A stretch of 64,000 nucleotides of DNA from Lachnospiraceae bacterium. Lineage in GTDB: Bacteria > Bacillota > Clostridia > Lachnospirales > Lachnospiraceae. Below, piece after piece: positions 3,249-9,274 of the stretch. Numbering within the stretch: the stretch's first letter is position 1; each line of letters opens with the position of its first letter. The notes beneath the pieces were generated by a model, which saw only the letters and a list, made by a program, of their open reading frames with translations, was not told where the DNA came from and did not search any database. Position numbers and translations under genes: made by a program. Location of the stretch: contig JAEERY010000092.1 of NCBI GenBank assembly GCA_016286035.1, positions 1-64,000 on the forward strand, given 5' to 3'.

Positions 3249-4412
3249 ATGTTTAAGTATAATTGCCTTAATCCGATAGCTGCCGTCGGTCTTAACAATT
3301 TTGACAGCAATTACGAAAAGACAGATGATGTCAATGAAGCAGAAGGCATACTTGTACGTTCAGCAAGCATGCATGAGATGGAGCTTCCCGAGAAGCTTCT
3401 CTGCGTAGCAAGAGCAGGCGCAGGTGTAAACAATATCCCTCTTGATAAGTGTGCAGAGAAAGGTATCGTAGTATTCAACACACCCGGTGCAAACGCAAAC
3501 GGTGTTAAGGAACTCGTATTTGCAGGAATGCTTTTAGCAAGCCGTGATATCACAGGCGGTATCCAGTGGGTTAAGGATAACGCATCAGATCCCGAAGTAG
3601 GCAAAGCTGCTGAAAAGGCAAAAAAAGCTTTCGCAGGAACTGAGATCCAGGGTAAAAAGCTTGGTATCATCGGTCTCGGCGCAATAGGTATTAAGGTGGC
3701 AAACGCTGCTACAAGTCTTGGCATGGAAGTACTTGGATACGATCCTTATCTTTCAGTTGATCAGGCTTGGAACTTAAGCAGAGCCGTAAAGCATGTGATA
3801 AATGTAGAAGATATCTATGCTGAATGTGATTTCATCACAATACATGTTCCTCTTCTTGACTCTACAAAGGGTATGATCAATAAAGAAGCGATCGAGAAGA
3901 TGAAAGACGGTGTTATCATTCTTAACTTTGCACGTGATCTTCTTTGCAATGAAGCAGATGTTATCGAAGGCATCAAAGCAGGCAAGGTTCGTAAGTATGT
4001 TTCTGATTTCCCGAATGCAACCACAGCTGGTCAGGACGGATGTATCGTTATACCTCACCTTGGAGCTTCTACAGAAGAGTCAGAAGACAATTGTGCGGTT
4101 ATGGCTGTTAAAGAGATGAGAGATTACCTTGAGAACGGTAACATCATCAATTCAGTAAACTATCCCAGATGTGACATGGGTATCTGTGCACAGGCCGGAA
4201 GAGTTGCAGTATTCCACAAGAATATCGCAAACATGATTGCAAGCTTTACTAAGGTATTCGGTGACAATAAGATCAATATCTCAGATATGACAAACAAGTC
4301 CAAGGGTGAATTCGCTTACACTATGCTTGATATCGAGAGCCCTGCTACAGAAGAGATAGTAAAAGAGCTTAATGCTATTGACGGCGTATACAGAGTACGT
4401 GTTGTAAAATAA
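3249..4412 (+). CDS. serA: D-3-phosphoglycerate dehydrogenase
   Basis: NAD-dependent first step of serine synthesis. The 387 residues hold the split substrate domain (with LCVARAGAGVNNI), the Rossmann motif GLGAIGIKVAN, the NFARDLL segment with the conserved Arg, and the catalytic His in VIPHLGASTEES. A C-terminal ACT domain (about 315-387) would be the serine-sensing module. This is the short single-ACT type. It has its own GAGG ribosome site and is translated with serC; a hairpin terminator follows. Confidence 0.97.
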   Translation: MFKYNCLNPIAAVGLNNFDSNYEKTDDVNEAEGILVRSASMHEMELPEKLLCVARAGAGVNNIPLDKCAEKGIVVFNTPGANANGVKELVFAGMLLASRDITGGIQWVKDNASDPEVGKAAEKAKKAFAGTEIQGKKLGIIGLGAIGIKVANAATSLGMEVLGYDPYLSVDQAWNLSRAVKHVINVEDIYAECDFITIHVPLLDSTKGMINKEAIEKMKDGVIILNFARDLLCNEADVIEGIKAGKVRKYVSDFPNATTAGQDGCIVIPHLGASTEESEDNCAVMAVKEMRDYLENGNIINSVNYPRCDMGICAQAGRVAVFHKNIANMIASFTKVFGDNKINISDMTNKSKGEFAYTMLDIESPATEEIVKELNAIDGVYRVRVVK

Positions 4413-4496: not shown

Positions 4497-4520
4497 GTAG
4501 GCTGTTTGGAGGTATATGTT

Positions 4521-4793
4521 ATGACAGCAGAAGATATTGAATTTCTTAATACTATTCAGGAATACGCAGACAAGGTCATGCCCGATATCGACCCTCAGAA
4601 AGTTCAGATATCAGAGCAGCTTCAGAAGTTAAGACCCATAATCCAGGAACTTGCCATGAAGCATAAGATGACTGTTGAAGATACATTTATAAGATATATG
4701 GATCTGGCGACAGAAAGAGCCGTTAATTATGAAAATAAGATGAATGATGAATTTGAAGGCACTTTTTCCAAACCCCAGATGCCTAAATACTAA
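4521..4793 (+). CDS. Small acidic protein of unknown function
   Basis: 90 residues, starting at the ATG placed 8 nt after GGAGG (4508-4512); an in-frame TTG further up overlaps that ribosome site and is rejected. The protein is soluble, with no signal or membrane segment, and looks mainly alpha-helical. I recognise no domain. It lies 21 nt before the DUF1015 gene with no terminator between, so the two are probably co-transcribed. Confidence 0.75.
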   Translation: MTAEDIEFLNTIQEYADKVMPDIDPQKVQISEQLQKLRPIIQELAMKHKMTVEDTFIRYMDLATERAVNYENKMNDEFEGTFSKPQMPKY

Positions 4794-4814: not shown

Positions 4815-6050
4815 ATGGCAAAGATCAAACCGTTCAAGGCATATCGTCCCGCCAAGGGACTGGAAGACAAGATAGCAGCTCTTCCATATGATGTATATAA
4901 CAGAGCTGAGGCTAAGGTTGTTGTTGACAATAATCCCCTTAGCTTTCTTGGAATAGACAGAGCGGAGACACATTTCCCCGATGATGTGTCCACTTATGAT
5001 GACAGAGTTTACGACAAGGCAAATGAGCTCATACAGACATGGATAAAAGAGGGCAAGTTTGTTCAGGATGATAAAGAGTGCTACTACCTTTATCAGGAAG
5101 AATGGAGAGGCCGTAAGCAAACGGGTATCGTAGGATGTGCTTCCATTGATGATTATGAGAACAAAGTGATTAAAAAGCACGAGAATACCCTTGCCGCAAA
5201 AGAACAGGACAGAATAAATCACATTGACCGTACGAACATGCAGACAGGTCCCATCTTCCTTTCATTCTGCTCAAACGAAGCTATCGATTCATTTATGAAT
5301 TCATATATTCTAAAGACGCCTGTATATGATTTTACGAGTGAAGATGATGTAACTCACAGAGTATGGGTTATAGATGCTGACGATGATATAGCATTTGTAA
5401 AAGAATGTTTTGAAAAGATGGATGCCATATATATAGCGGACGGACATCACAGATGTGCATCTGCTGTTAAAGTCGGCCTTAAGAGAAGGGCGGAAGGCAG
5501 ATCAAACGGAAATTCGGAATCTGATTTCTTTATGTCTGTTCTTTTCCCTGATAATCAGCTTGAGATCATGGATTACAACAGAGTTCTTAAAGACAAGGCT
5601 GAAAAAAGTAATGATGAGCTGCTTGAGCTTATCGGTAAATACTGTGATATAGAAAAGAAAGACAGCCAATATAAACCTAAGGCTAAAGGCGAGGTTGGAA
5701 TGTATATGGACTATACATGGTATAAACTCACTTTTAAGAAGGAATTTACAAGCGAGGATGCCGTGGACGGTCTTGATGTTGCTTTCCTTCAGAAATATAT
5801 ACTTGACGGAATATGGGGCATAAAGGATCCCAAAACAGATTCACGTATTGATTTTGTCGGAGGAATAAGAGGGCTTGACGAACTTGAGAGAAGATGCGGT
5901 GTTGACTGTCAGGTTGCATTTGCGATGTATCCCACAAGCATTCTTGAACTCTTTGCTGTAGCAAATGAGGGACGACTTATGCCGCCCAAGTCTACATGGT
6001 TTGAACCTAAATTGAGAAGCGGCATATTCTTGCACGACATAAAAGCTTGA
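4815..6050 (+). CDS. DUF1015 family protein
   Basis: A 411-residue soluble protein that opens IKPFKAYRPAKGLEDKIAAL, followed by PYDVYNRAEA, the hallmark start of DUF1015. Other family-like segments are GIVGCASIDDY, KKHENTLAAKEQDR and IADGHHRCASA, the last a conserved Gly-His-His cluster suggestive of a catalytic or metal site. The biochemical function is not known to me. In related Clostridia the gene sits beside serC and serA, as here, which hints at a link with serine or phosphate-ester metabolism; that is inference. The GlgB-like gene follows after 27 nt. Confidence 0.9.
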   Translation: MAKIKPFKAYRPAKGLEDKIAALPYDVYNRAEAKVVVDNNPLSFLGIDRAETHFPDDVSTYDDRVYDKANELIQTWIKEGKFVQDDKECYYLYQEEWRGRKQTGIVGCASIDDYENKVIKKHENTLAAKEQDRINHIDRTNMQTGPIFLSFCSNEAIDSFMNSYILKTPVYDFTSEDDVTHRVWVIDADDDIAFVKECFEKMDAIYIADGHHRCASAVKVGLKRRAEGRSNGNSESDFFMSVLFPDNQLEIMDYNRVLKDKAEKSNDELLELIGKYCDIEKKDSQYKPKAKGEVGMYMDYTWYKLTFKKEFTSEDAVDGLDVAFLQKYILDGIWGIKDPKTDSRIDFVGGIRGLDELERRCGVDCQVAFAMYPTSILELFAVANEGRLMPPKSTWFEPKLRSGIFLHDIKA

Positions 6051-6077
6051 TTTACCGGCATAAAGAAGGAGAAGGAA

Positions 6078-8315
6078 ATGAAGGATAAACTATATAAGAT
6101 GATGAGCTGGCCTCAGATAGAGGCTGTGGTTTACGGTGAAGAAGGAAATCCGCAGACTATACTCGGAAGGCATAATATTTCCGCATATACACTTTATCAG
6201 ACTTTTATCCCTACTGCTGAGAGCGTTACTCTTTGCATATCAGACGATAAAAAGACATATCCAATGGAACTCGCCGATGAAGCAGGATTCTTTGCGATCG
6301 CAATAGTCGGAAAGGACAGAAGGGACTATGTCTACAACGTTGTTTACAAGGACGGAAAGACAGCAACCATACATGATCCTTATGTGTTTGACGTTAAGCT
6401 TACGAAAGAGGAAACAAATGCGTGGAACAAAGGAGCATGTCTTGATGCCTATAAGTTTATGGGAAGCCACGCCATTGAATTTGACGGCGTAAAAGGAACG
6501 GTTTTTCGTGTTTGGGCTCCCAATGCTGTAAGAGCATCAGTTATCGGTGACTTTAATTCCTGGGACGGACATTCTCATCCCATGATGTTTGATGAGAACA
6601 CCGGAATATTCAGCTTATTCATTCCCGAACTTGATGCCGGTAATGAATACATGTATGAGATCTGTGCAAAGGGAGGAGCTGTATATACAAAGCTTGACCC
6701 TTATGCAACAAAGTTGAATAATGGTCACTGCGTGATAGAAGACAAGCGTACATTCCGCTGGAATGACAAGACTTACATGGCTGACAGAAAGAAGAATGCA
6801 TCCAAAGACATAATCAACATCTTTGAGATTGATTCCGATATGTGGTCACAGGACGAAGAAGGATATGATCCCAAAAAGACTGATGAACTTGTCAAATACA
6901 TAGAGGAAGTCGGTTATACGCATGTTCTTATAAATGTTTCGACCGACAGCTTTTATGCTATTAATCCGTATATGCTTCAAAACGACAATCTCAAGAAGTT
7001 TGTAAATGCCATGCATTCAATCGGGAAAGGAGTTCTGATAAGGTGGAATCCAACATGCTTTGCTCCCGATGAAGACGGAATGAAATCATTTGACGGTACT
7101 TATCTGTACGGTCATCTTGATGACAGAAAGAGATATAATCTTTTATTCGGTTATAACTTCAATTACGGTAGAGAACAGGTAGACAATTACCTGATGTCCA
7201 ACGCCAACTTCTTCTTTGATGAATTCCATGCAGACGGACTTCATATCGAAGAGATAAGTACCATTCTTTATCTTGACTATGGCAAGAATGAAGGAGAATG
7301 GGTTCCGAATATGTACGGCGGTAACGAGAACCTTGATGCTATCAATTTCTTAAGAAGCGTCAATACCGTATTTCACAGAAAGTATCCGGGAATAATAACA
7401 GTGACTAAGGAAACATGCATGTTCCCGAAAGTAACTTATCCCGTCAAGGAAGACGGACTTGGATTTGATTTTATATGGGATAACGGATTTACTGATGATT
7501 ATATGTCATTCTTAAGAAAGGGTGACACAGATATACGTAAGATAACCGACAATATGGCTTACGCATACAGTGAGGATTATATCTTGACTGTATCAAAAGA
7601 AGATGTCCTTGCAGCAAATGATTATGATTTTGAGAGAGTTGCGGACGGAGCAGGCTTCTATGATTATATAGCTTATGATAATTCCGAAAAGCTTAAAGTT
7701 AAGAGAGCAACCCTTGCTCTTATAATGGCACGTCCGGGTAAAAAGCTCATATACATGGGACAAGATGAAAAGAATATAAGCACAGAGTTAAACAATCTGT
7801 ATCGCAAGCTTCCTGCATTTCATGTGCTTGACAGAAACCCCGACGGTTTTGAATGGGTTTATGCATTCTCGGGCGGAAACGGTGTTATAGCCTTTTTGAG
7901 AAAAGGCGAGATATTTAAGGACAATATACTCGTTGTCTGCAATTTCTCAAGAGAGACATACGAAGAATACAAGTTAGGAATATCTTATGAAGGTAAGTAT
8001 AAGAGGATCTTCTGTTCAGAAGAGAGCCGATTCGGCGGAGATTACAAAATGGCCAATAAGGCCGTTGAAACCGTCGATGAAGAATATGACGGCAAAGAGA
8101 GCAGCCTGACTGTAGGTCTGCCGGCTCTTTCTGTTTCATATTTTTCATATACACCTTTTGTTGAGGAAGAGTTCTTAAAGATTGCAGCAAAGAAAGCTGA
8201 TGCCATAAGAAAAGAACTTGAGAAGGAAGCTGACAGAAGGGCAAAAGAACTTGAAGAAGATGCACTAAGGAAAGCTAAAGAATACAATAGCTTAAGCAAG
8301 AGAAGATTATCATGA
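6078..8315 (+). CDS. GlgB-like alpha-amylase-fold protein, catalytic residues lost (probable pseudoenzyme)
   Basis: 745 residues with the layout of a 1,4-alpha-glucan branching enzyme. There is an N-terminal carbohydrate-binding region, a CBM48-like domain (GTVFRVWAPNAVRASVIGDF, about 140-230), a TIM barrel (about 240-575), an all-beta C-domain (about 590-690) and a charged helical tail (695-745). Diagnostic GlgB stretches survive, such as YLDYGKNEGEWVPNMYGG. The four amylase motifs are changed, by hand alignment. Region I DWVPAHF is RWNPTCF (R322, C327). The region II nucleophile Asp is E391 in DGLHIEEI, with Arg now H389. The region III acid/base Glu is K444 in TVTKET. In region IV SHDEV is SKEDV (K507, E508). 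It probably cannot cleave glucan but may bind it. The frame is intact and its end overlaps the MscS gene. Confidence 0.85.
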   Translation: MKDKLYKMMSWPQIEAVVYGEEGNPQTILGRHNISAYTLYQTFIPTAESVTLCISDDKKTYPMELADEAGFFAIAIVGKDRRDYVYNVVYKDGKTATIHDPYVFDVKLTKEETNAWNKGACLDAYKFMGSHAIEFDGVKGTVFRVWAPNAVRASVIGDFNSWDGHSHPMMFDENTGIFSLFIPELDAGNEYMYEICAKGGAVYTKLDPYATKLNNGHCVIEDKRTFRWNDKTYMADRKKNASKDIINIFEIDSDMWSQDEEGYDPKKTDELVKYIEEVGYTHVLINVSTDSFYAINPYMLQNDNLKKFVNAMHSIGKGVLIRWNPTCFAPDEDGMKSFDGTYLYGHLDDRKRYNLLFGYNFNYGREQVDNYLMSNANFFFDEFHADGLHIEEISTILYLDYGKNEGEWVPNMYGGNENLDAINFLRSVNTVFHRKYPGIITVTKETCMFPKVTYPVKEDGLGFDFIWDNGFTDDYMSFLRKGDTDIRKITDNMAYAYSEDYILTVSKEDVLAANDYDFERVADGAGFYDYIAYDNSEKLKVKRATLALIMARPGKKLIYMGQDEKNISTELNNLYRKLPAFHVLDRNPDGFEWVYAFSGGNGVIAFLRKGEIFKDNILVVCNFSRETYEEYKLGISYEGKYKRIFCSEESRFGGDYKMANKAVETVDEEYDGKESSLTVGLPALSVSYFSYTPFVEEEFLKIAAKKADAIRKELEKEADRRAKELEEDALRKAKEYNSLSKRRLS

Positions 8316-9274
8316 TATTATTTCTTAACAAACTGGCTGAAAGCAATATAAACGTCCTTTATGATGTTGATAACGAACAACCCGCTATAGATGATCAGTT
8401 CGGGATGCAGACAGTCGAGGACATCAGCGAAAATATTAAAAGCGGCGCATTGCAAACATATCTAAACGAACTTCCGGACAAGCTGATAGCTATGGGAGTT
8501 AAGGTTCTGCTTACATTTATCATAGTTCTTGTGGGCATTAAACTCATTAAGATGTTCAGAAAGGCTGTAAGCAAGGCGCTTAATAAAGCAAATGTCGAAA
8601 AGGGCGTTATCCAGTTTACAGACAGTCTTATCAAGACTGTACTGACCATACTTTTAGTTTTATGGGTAGCTGTAAACTTCGGAGTCGAGGCAACCTCGAT
8701 AGCCGCTCTTATAAGTTCTGTATCTATAGCCATAGGTCTTGCGCTGCAGGGTTCTTTAAGTAACTTTGCCGGCGGTATCCTGATCTTATTACTTAAACCT
8801 TTCAAGGTAGGAGATTACATCAAAGAGGATACTCACAGCAACGAAGGAACTGTAAAGGAGATCAATCTCTTTTATACCAAGCTTCTTTCATACGATAACA
8901 AGACAATAGTTCTTCCAAACGGCATACTTGCCAATTCCAGCATGGTCAACTTTTCGGATGACGGAAAAAGAAGACTGGATCTGAGGATCAGCATCTCTTA
9001 CGACGCTGATATAAAAACTGCACGAGAAGTGATAGAAAAGGTCGTTGATGAAAACAAACTCATTCTTTCGAATCTTCAAAAAAACGTCTTTGTTGCAGAC
9101 CTTTCGGAAAGCTGCGTTACTCTCGGTGTAAGATGTTTTGTGAAAGCCGATGAGTATTTCAAAGCAAGGTGGGGATTGCTCGAAGATATTAAATATGCAA
9201 TGGATGAAAACGGTATAACCATACCGTACCCTCAGCTTGACGTACATATCAAAGACAAGGTTAAAGCCAAATGA
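8312..9274 (+). CDS. Small-conductance mechanosensitive channel, MscS family
   Basis: 320 residues. An N-terminal region of about 60 residues is followed by three membrane helices (about 58-82, 103-125, 130-160). The pore helix and beta domain carry the MscS signature LQGSLSNFAGGILILLLKPF and VGDYI, then VLPNGILANSSMVNFS. It releases solutes under hypo-osmotic stress. The ATG overlaps the end of the GlgB-like gene by 4 nt and has little ribosome site of its own, so translation is probably coupled. The tRNA-Thr promoter follows just after the stop. Confidence 0.93.
   Translation: MILFLNKLAESNINVLYDVDNEQPAIDDQFGMQTVEDISENIKSGALQTYLNELPDKLIAMGVKVLLTFIIVLVGIKLIKMFRKAVSKALNKANVEKGVIQFTDSLIKTVLTILLVLWVAVNFGVEATSIAALISSVSIAIGLALQGSLSNFAGGILILLLKPFKVGDYIKEDTHSNEGTVKEINLFYTKLLSYDNKTIVLPNGILANSSMVNFSDDGKRRLDLRISISYDADIKTAREVIEKVVDENKLILSNLQKNVFVADLSESCVTLGVRCFVKADEYFKARWGLLEDIKYAMDENGITIPYPQLDVHIKDKVKAK

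Follow-up and report, generated by a model that had tools for sequence, protein, structure and literature searches.

A second GlgB paralogue of Lachnospiraceae with a replaced active site: a putative glycogen-associated pseudoenzyme

The window, by which we mean the whole analysed stretch of 64,000 nucleotides (positions 1 to 64,000 of contig JAEERY010000092.1, assembly GCA_016286035.1, from a Lachnospiraceae bacterium), carries a gene for a protein that has the fold of the branching enzyme GlgB and a replaced active site. Judging from alignments and gene order, this gene is a member of a second GlgB paralogue of the Lachnospiraceae, referred to below as GlgB2. The open reading frame (ORF) lies at 6078-8315 on the forward strand and is uninterrupted from ATG to stop. 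Its product is arranged as N1 domain, CBM48 domain, barrel, C domain, and charged tail. The gene and its parts are the following:

6066-6071, + strand: AAGGAG, a probable ribosome-binding site 5' of the glgB2 ATG, read from the sequence
6078-8315, + strand: glgB2, putative pseudoenzyme gene, 745 amino acids plus stop, ATG start
6078-6413, + strand: N1 domain, residues 1-112 (border set in this analysis; Pfam GlgB_N at 11-102), with conserved Y6, W11, E15, and Y19
6459-6707, + strand: CBM48 domain, residues 128-210 (Pfam CBM_48)
6783-7811, + strand: degenerate TIM barrel, residues 236-578 (borders set in this analysis from alignment and fold)
7872-8147, + strand: Alpha-amylase_C domain, residues 599-690 (Pfam)
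8154-8312, + strand: charged helical tail, residues 693-745, with a helix at 696-744 predicted in an AlphaFold2 model

A GlgB architecture with a CBM48-like domain had been proposed in the original prediction, and the Pfam domains and structural matches agree with it. All four parts of the GlgB fold family (N1, CBM48, TIM barrel, and C domain) were found, the barrel by fold and alignment rather than by a Pfam model, as no Pfam match to the alpha-amylase catalytic domain was obtained for the protein at E<=1. Six GlgB models of NCBIfam match it, all under their cut-offs (the best with 452.4 versus 741 bits). A phmmer search against PDB sequences (E<=0.01) returned 26 distinct sequences, which are branching enzymes, two of them with a rice locus name, apart from one weak maltooligosyltrehalose trehalohydrolase match. 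The AlphaFold2 model, built with 40 related sequences, has a mean predicted local distance difference test score (pLDDT) of 87.9 and a predicted template modelling score (pTM) of 0.84. Branching enzymes make up all of its best 50 Foldseek matches, for example 3k1d with template modelling (TM) scores of 0.82/0.85 and a root mean square deviation of 3.5. A different fold is thus excluded as an explanation, because the model matches GlgB structures best. In the barrel, about 11 residues are absent after about residue 289 relative to 5gr2 (phmmer alignment), and 25 columns are absent after D563 relative to the shorter GlgB (GlgB1) of the same genome, so that by these alignments at least two canonical barrel stretches are gone.

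The seven active-site positions of family GH13 were mapped by MAFFT alignment with L002, the canonical GlgB encoded on G000:C89 of the same genome. A second alignment, to which E. coli K-12 GlgB had been added, gave identical residue pairs for all seven columns. Both alignments support the following assignments:

7041-7043, + strand: R322 in place of the region I Asp (E. coli D335)
7056-7058, + strand: C327 in place of the region I His (E. coli H340)
7242-7244, + strand: H389 in place of the region II Arg (E. coli R403)
7248-7250, + strand: E391 in place of the nucleophile Asp (E. coli D405)
7407-7409, + strand: K444 in place of the acid/base Glu (E. coli E458); K or R in 18/18 proteins of the genus
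7596-7601, + strand: K507-E508 in place of the region IV His-Asp (E. coli H525-D526)

The claim that every one of these residues is replaced, made earlier by hand alignment, was reproduced down to its numbering. The window protein has no Asp/Glu/Asp triad, no region I or region IV His, and no region II Arg. These assignments rest on sequence alignment, because structural comparison yielded no residue pairs. An alignment shift that would restore the triad was considered and rejected, since the adjacent acids align with the canonical neighbours of the catalytic residues; in the canonical GlgB motifs AEE and HDE, an acid also stands directly after each catalytic acid. On this evidence, the window protein almost certainly lacks branching activity. 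Whether the substitutions recur in relatives had been proposed for checking, and active-site loss does extend throughout the genus: each of the 18 aligned proteins retains at most two of the seven residues, and eight retain none.

In the genus, the residues now found in the old site are restricted by charge. Charge class is kept at 444 (K/R in 18/18), 508 (D/E in 18/18), and 391 (D/E in 17/18), position 389 is H in 17/18, E445 is present in 18/18, and D509 in 17/18. Two alternatives draw on this pattern. According to the first, the protein is still a branching enzyme whose catalytic residues are supplied by neighbours such as the invariant E445 and the nearly invariant D509. We regard this as highly improbable, as both residues match the canonical acids that follow the catalytic ones in AEE and HDE, the region I Asp and His and the region II Arg are lost, and the barrel no longer shows its additional conservation. 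In the second, a ligand such as a phosphorylated metabolite would now bind in a pocket formed by the former active site, and the protein would act as an allosteric sensor or as an enzyme of another kind. The charge-restricted new residues at 389, 391, 444, and 508 together with E445 speak for such a pocket; however, their entropy is unexceptional for the barrel. Among the genus proteins, the entropy percentile within the barrel runs from the 18th to the 53rd for positions 389, 391, 444, 507, and 508, and is the 79th and 83rd for 322 and 327. The charged pairs may merely fill the old site, canonical barrel stretches are missing, and other lineages have quite different residues, which leaves the ligand pocket improbable, if less so than residual catalysis.

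An intact frame without decay had also been noted, and comparison with relatives bears this out. Including the window's own, an orthologue was found in 19/20 genomes of the genus, and the genome without one is 60% complete; named relatives include Candidatus Colinaster and rumen Lachnospiraceae metagenome-assembled genomes. The ratio of nonsynonymous to synonymous substitution rates (dN/dS) was 0.031 (window versus L004), 0.013, 0.066, 0.056, and 0.041 in those genus pairs, five out of eight, for which dS was computable; because dS was 1.0-3.4, near saturation, these values are rough, yet they lie far below 1 and indicate maintenance by selection. In five GlgB1 pairs of 496 codons each, dN/dS was 0.018-0.026. 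An assembly error was rejected, as many genomes agree. The gene could alternatively be redundant, in early decay, and retained by chance. GlgB1 does make catalysis by GlgB2 redundant, the orthologue of one genome (G017) is spread over more than one contig, and stop codons occur in a few matches among relatives, but the long open frames across the genus and the dN/dS range of 0.013-0.066 make chance retention hardly credible. We are therefore confident that the gene is retained for a function. Catalytic residues lost in an intact gene, purifying selection, and a canonical-looking paralogue in the same genome are together the marks of a pseudoenzyme.

A canonical glgB was indeed located elsewhere in the window genome, as had been proposed for checking; the GlgB on G000:C89 has all canonical residues. 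A GlgB1-type match was found in 19/20 genomes of the genus (in G002, it was not found). A separate GlgB1 match was present in 32/32 tested genomes with an altered GlgB2, a set examined before 21 altered proteins were added, and 30/30 fetched copies have canonical residues. Among genomes with a canonical GlgB2, a GlgB1 match was found in 27/30, and GlgB2 alone in three. The difference between 32/32 and 27/30 is too small to weigh, and the 27 are counted at the level of matches. In one genome, the GlgB1 match is in two pieces (G029:C176:17198-19137), perhaps through a frameshift or an assembly error; its GlgB2 (L163) is altered. The window genome further has one glgA match and three glgP matches above the cut-off, the latter on contigs C66, C94, and C39, one of them at a contig end.

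To follow the paralogue across the family, which is taken to be Lachnospiraceae from named records of the genus together with a common family code, 397 genomes were searched with the window protein, which gave matches at E<=1e-90 in 222. A search of the same genomes with an N1 profile gave matches at E<=1e-8 in 243, a tally that includes weak matches, which may be ordinary long GlgBs. Besides the automatic loci, 157 stretches were fetched, and 244 proteins were aligned: 41 short GlgB1, 14 GlgB from other families of the order, one masked row (L257), and 188 GlgB2-type proteins. ORFs shorter than 550 amino acids, duplicates, and substrings were left out, including the split orthologue of G017. 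The sample was assembled first from the top matches of the window protein and then from the top listed matches of the N1 profile, plus a few proteins of an order-wide search. Here "altered" means that at least one of the seven active-site positions is changed. The 188 GlgB2-type proteins comprise 18 from the genus, none of them canonical, and 117 canonical and 53 altered proteins outside it; 53/170 is a count rather than a family-wide frequency, because proteins were chosen for their resemblance to the window protein first and for their N1 score second. Of the altered proteins outside the genus, 49/53 lack the Asp/Glu/Asp triad, and some of the 53 have a gap in an active-site column, which makes their alignment there uncertain. 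The canonical GlgB2 set includes L175 and L177, which stand beside the GlgB1 and other-family rows in the 244-row tree.

Phylogenetic trees, built after removing the columns around the catalytic residues, were used to ask how often catalysis was lost. In a FastTree tree of all 244 rows, the altered rows need eight changes, five of them forced by starred branches; in a 62-row mixture-model tree, they need ten, of which seven are forced. Three separate losses are clear in the smaller tree: L252 stands beside canonical L280 (support 100), L166/L064/L243 group with canonical L127 (support 99), and L273/L286 group with canonical L130 (support 94; 96 with L131). A single origin of loss was rejected, as placing 27 altered rows in one clade cost 396 log-likelihood units (p-AU 5e-39 in the approximately unbiased test, which is subject to the long-branch pull of the model and was applied to 27/71 altered rows chosen after the first trees). 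Many of the altered rows (43/71), including the window genus, fall in one all-altered group of the 244-row tree with a weak support of 55. The losses are hence far fewer than the altered proteins, and their exact number is uncertain given this weak group and the long branches. By these comparisons, the same paralogue lost catalytic residues more than once, while N1 stayed constrained. One further set of GlgB2 proteins, group g208 (L062, L214-L217, and L219), has Ser at the nucleophile position, Lys at that of the acid/base, and Glu at that of the stabiliser, unlike the window genus; g208 and the window genus both lie inside the all-altered group.

Conservation shifts between domains when catalysis is lost. 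Mean pairwise identity, from up to 400 sampled pairs per group, is 0.46 for N1, 0.61 for CBM48, 0.72 for the barrel, and 0.52 for the C domain in canonical GlgB2, and 0.41, 0.46, 0.39, and 0.40, respectively, in the 53 other altered proteins. In the genus, the corresponding values are 0.68, 0.56, 0.53, and 0.61, with N1 the highest. When pairs are matched by N1 identity (0.38-0.45), the median barrel identity is 0.71 for canonical proteins (2275 pairs) versus 0.39 for altered ones (554 pairs). The median ratio of barrel to N1 identity is 1.56 for canonical pairs, 0.98 for pairs of other altered proteins, and 0.76 within the genus. The matched pairs show that the barrel lost its extra constraint in altered members, and that N1 hardly changed. 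Sampling by N1 may inflate N1 conservation in both groups, and the contrast between the groups is less affected. Five N1 residues (Y6, W11, E15, Y19, and Y102) are present in 70 or all of the 71 genus and altered proteins and in 112-117 of the 117 canonical GlgB2; at the columns of the first four, E. coli GlgB has a gap, R, N, and A. N1 is accordingly the domain that, in these alignments, best keeps its conservation after catalytic loss.

The charged C-terminal tail had been described as an addition that accompanied the altered active site. The tail does exist, and a helix is predicted for most of it, but its tie to catalytic loss did not hold. In proteins whose C-domain end is present, a tail of at least 25 amino acids occurs in 16/17 genus, 34/47 other altered, and 98/115 canonical GlgB2, and in 2/40 short GlgB1. 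It is thus a trait of the paralogue and not of catalytic loss, and was rejected as a new feature of the pseudoenzyme. A loosely defined LKxEL-type motif in the tail (20/115 canonical, 3/47 other altered, 0/17 genus, and 0/40 GlgB1) does not explain the pseudoenzyme either, given these counts.

The genes around glgB2 are also shared between relatives. In the window, they include:

3249-4412, + strand: serA-like gene for a 2-hydroxyacid dehydrogenase, lying further upstream; often a neighbour in relatives too
4815-6050, + strand: DUF1015 gene upstream of glgB2; frequent glgB2 neighbour in relatives
8312-9274, + strand: MscS-type mechanosensitive channel gene, whose ATG overlaps the glgB2 stop (ATGA)

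The order serA-like gene, DUF1015, GlgB2, and MscS is common to many canonical and altered copies, and this common locus supports the orthology of GlgB2 copies independently of the tree. For genes with room to tell, MscS was detected beside 99/111 canonical, 29/44 other altered, and 5/17 genus GlgB2, and beside 0/38 GlgB1. The window has both flanking genes of the GlgB2 locus, with DUF1015 upstream and MscS downstream. At 12/17 genus genes, MscS was undetected, that is, no same-strand tblastn match to the window's MscS lay within 700 bases of the stop. Two observations concern the upstream side. An ADGHHR stretch is present in the DUF1015 protein, whose gene separates the serC/serA-like genes from glgB2; such motifs occur in ParB/Srx-fold serine kinases, and the protein may be a serine-pathway enzyme. 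A 95-amino-acid ORF at 4506-4793 has no Pfam match, and its relatives lie near DUF1015 in several of the related loci, often in the opposite orientation.

The conserved N1 head and the locus bring in the main rival explanation, a purely protein-binding role of N1. The GlgB fold would then be a mere frame on which N1, with or without the tail, binds another protein, possibly MscS, and there would be no role in glucan binding. That N1 best keeps its conservation, that Y6, W11, E15, and Y19 are near-invariant in GlgB2 and different in E. coli GlgB, and that the mscS start overlaps the glgB2 stop, with MscS adjoining most canonical GlgB2 genes, all fit such a role. Against it, the 12/17 genus genes that keep the pseudoenzyme with MscS undetected make a tight tie to MscS unlikely, and tryptophans at two glucan sites are kept. 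We consider this explanation unlikely, although it is the strongest of the competing ones.

Glucan binding at the surface was assessed by comparison with E. coli GlgB, for which Table 1 of PMC10254366 gives twelve surface glucan sites; the same paper places sites I, II, and VII in a region whose conservation is confined to Enterobacteria. With the sites taken from that table, two representative residues are kept in the alignment:

6561-6563, + strand: W162, equivalent to E. coli W159 (site IV)
7854-7856, + strand: W593, equivalent to E. coli W628 (site VI)

The W593 column is W in 18/18 genus and 48/53 other altered proteins. At the site IV column, the genus has W in 13/18 and Y in 4/18, and the other altered proteins have W in 47/53. 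Sites I, II, VII, VIII, and XII are gap columns in the window protein. Canonical GlgB2 itself lacks several of the E. coli site residues, and site II is also gapped in 113/117 of its members. The original prediction had suggested selection for binding, for example as a glycogen sensor or scaffold. The kept tryptophans are compatible with putative glucan binding, and a sensor or scaffold role is inferred.

We propose that the window protein is a GlgB-fold (GH13) pseudoenzyme that arose from an active GlgB2 at the same locus and is now a non-catalytic, glycogen-associated subunit, a reading to which we give an even chance. Alpha-glucan would be held through surface sites of the CBM48 and C domains (W162 and W593), and a regulatory or scaffolding effect might be passed on through the N1 head. 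The simplest route would be an association with GlgB1 or a different glycogen enzyme, on the model of ISA2 and its partner ISA1 in plants. A scaffold or regulator centred on N1 and acting on glycogen, proposed by analogy, falls slightly short of even chance. For active GlgB, PMC6339891 reports an influence of N1 on chain-length transfer; this and the analogy with ISA2 make a glycogen subunit acting through N1 the most economical function. The repeated losses suggest that a non-catalytic role already existed in active GlgB2 and was kept by selection. A more far-reaching and still tentative version sees GlgB2 as a protein of two functions, in which an ancestral job of N1, independent of branching, was selected. 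Since the N1 job would be the one under selection, the barrel would have been freed for parallel catalytic losses at one locus, and its pocket was possibly reused in the genus.

To the large all-altered group in the tree and the limits of the approximately unbiased test, several further points against a non-catalytic glycogen subunit have to be added. The Asp/Glu/Asp triad is kept in 4/53 altered proteins outside the genus, which may be active. Altered proteins have a slightly lower N1 identity than canonical ones (0.41 versus 0.46). Representative residues of the other ten of the twelve E. coli sites are replaced or deleted in the window protein, and W162 and W593, which branching enzymes in general conserve, may have a structural role. 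The neighbouring genes (serC/serA-like genes, DUF1015, and MscS) are not glycogen genes.

Several known systems resemble parts of this picture. Animal 4F2hc and rBAT (SLC3 family) are GH13-fold proteins without glycosidase activity; they share a GH13-like fold without catalysis and differ as membrane-anchored transporter subunits that are not close to GlgB. Type 1 bacterial GlgB, as described in PMC6339891, has the same fold and the same order of N1, CBM48, barrel, and C domain, whereas the window protein lacks the seven active-site residues and at least two barrel stretches, has a charged tail, and scores under the family cut-offs. Plant ISA2 is likewise a non-catalytic paralogue conserved beside a catalytic alpha-glucan enzyme, and is proposed in PMC12510319 to act by arranging glucan-binding sites in a complex. 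It belongs, however, to a plant debranching family and binds ISA1, whereas any partner of the window protein is hypothetical, and the single GlgB2 paralogue had its active sites altered on more than one occasion. Butyrivibrio hungatei MB2003 has a longer second gene, glgB2 (824 amino acids, with CBM48), beside glgB1 (663 amino acids); it is annotated as a branching enzyme in a table of PMC5716241, and the likeness is drawn from that entry. More than one glgB homologue is known in some gut bacteria, such as Blautia obeum and Dorea longicatena (PMC10395257). The review PMC11046441 marks an inactive isoform in the GH13 counts of some Archaea and mentions that in some Chlamydiae the branching-enzyme domain is inactivated by a glgA-glgB fusion. 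Among the best matches in open-licence literature, no title or abstract reports a bacterial family of GlgB pseudoenzymes.

Taken from these alignments and trees, some gut and rumen bacteria have a second GlgB at a fixed locus in which catalytic residues were lost more than once and the rest was maintained. Second GlgB copies can carry a branching-enzyme annotation, as the B. hungatei entry in PMC5716241 illustrates; if a sizeable share of them is inactive, both the annotations and the models that describe how gut bacteria metabolise glycogen will have to be corrected. The family is a natural experiment: many genera hold one paralogue at one locus, in either the canonical or the altered state, and the non-catalytic function can be sought in what both states keep, namely N1. 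If the two-function reading is true, GlgB2 would represent a bacterial regulator of storage polysaccharide that arose by repeated pseudoenzyme formation.

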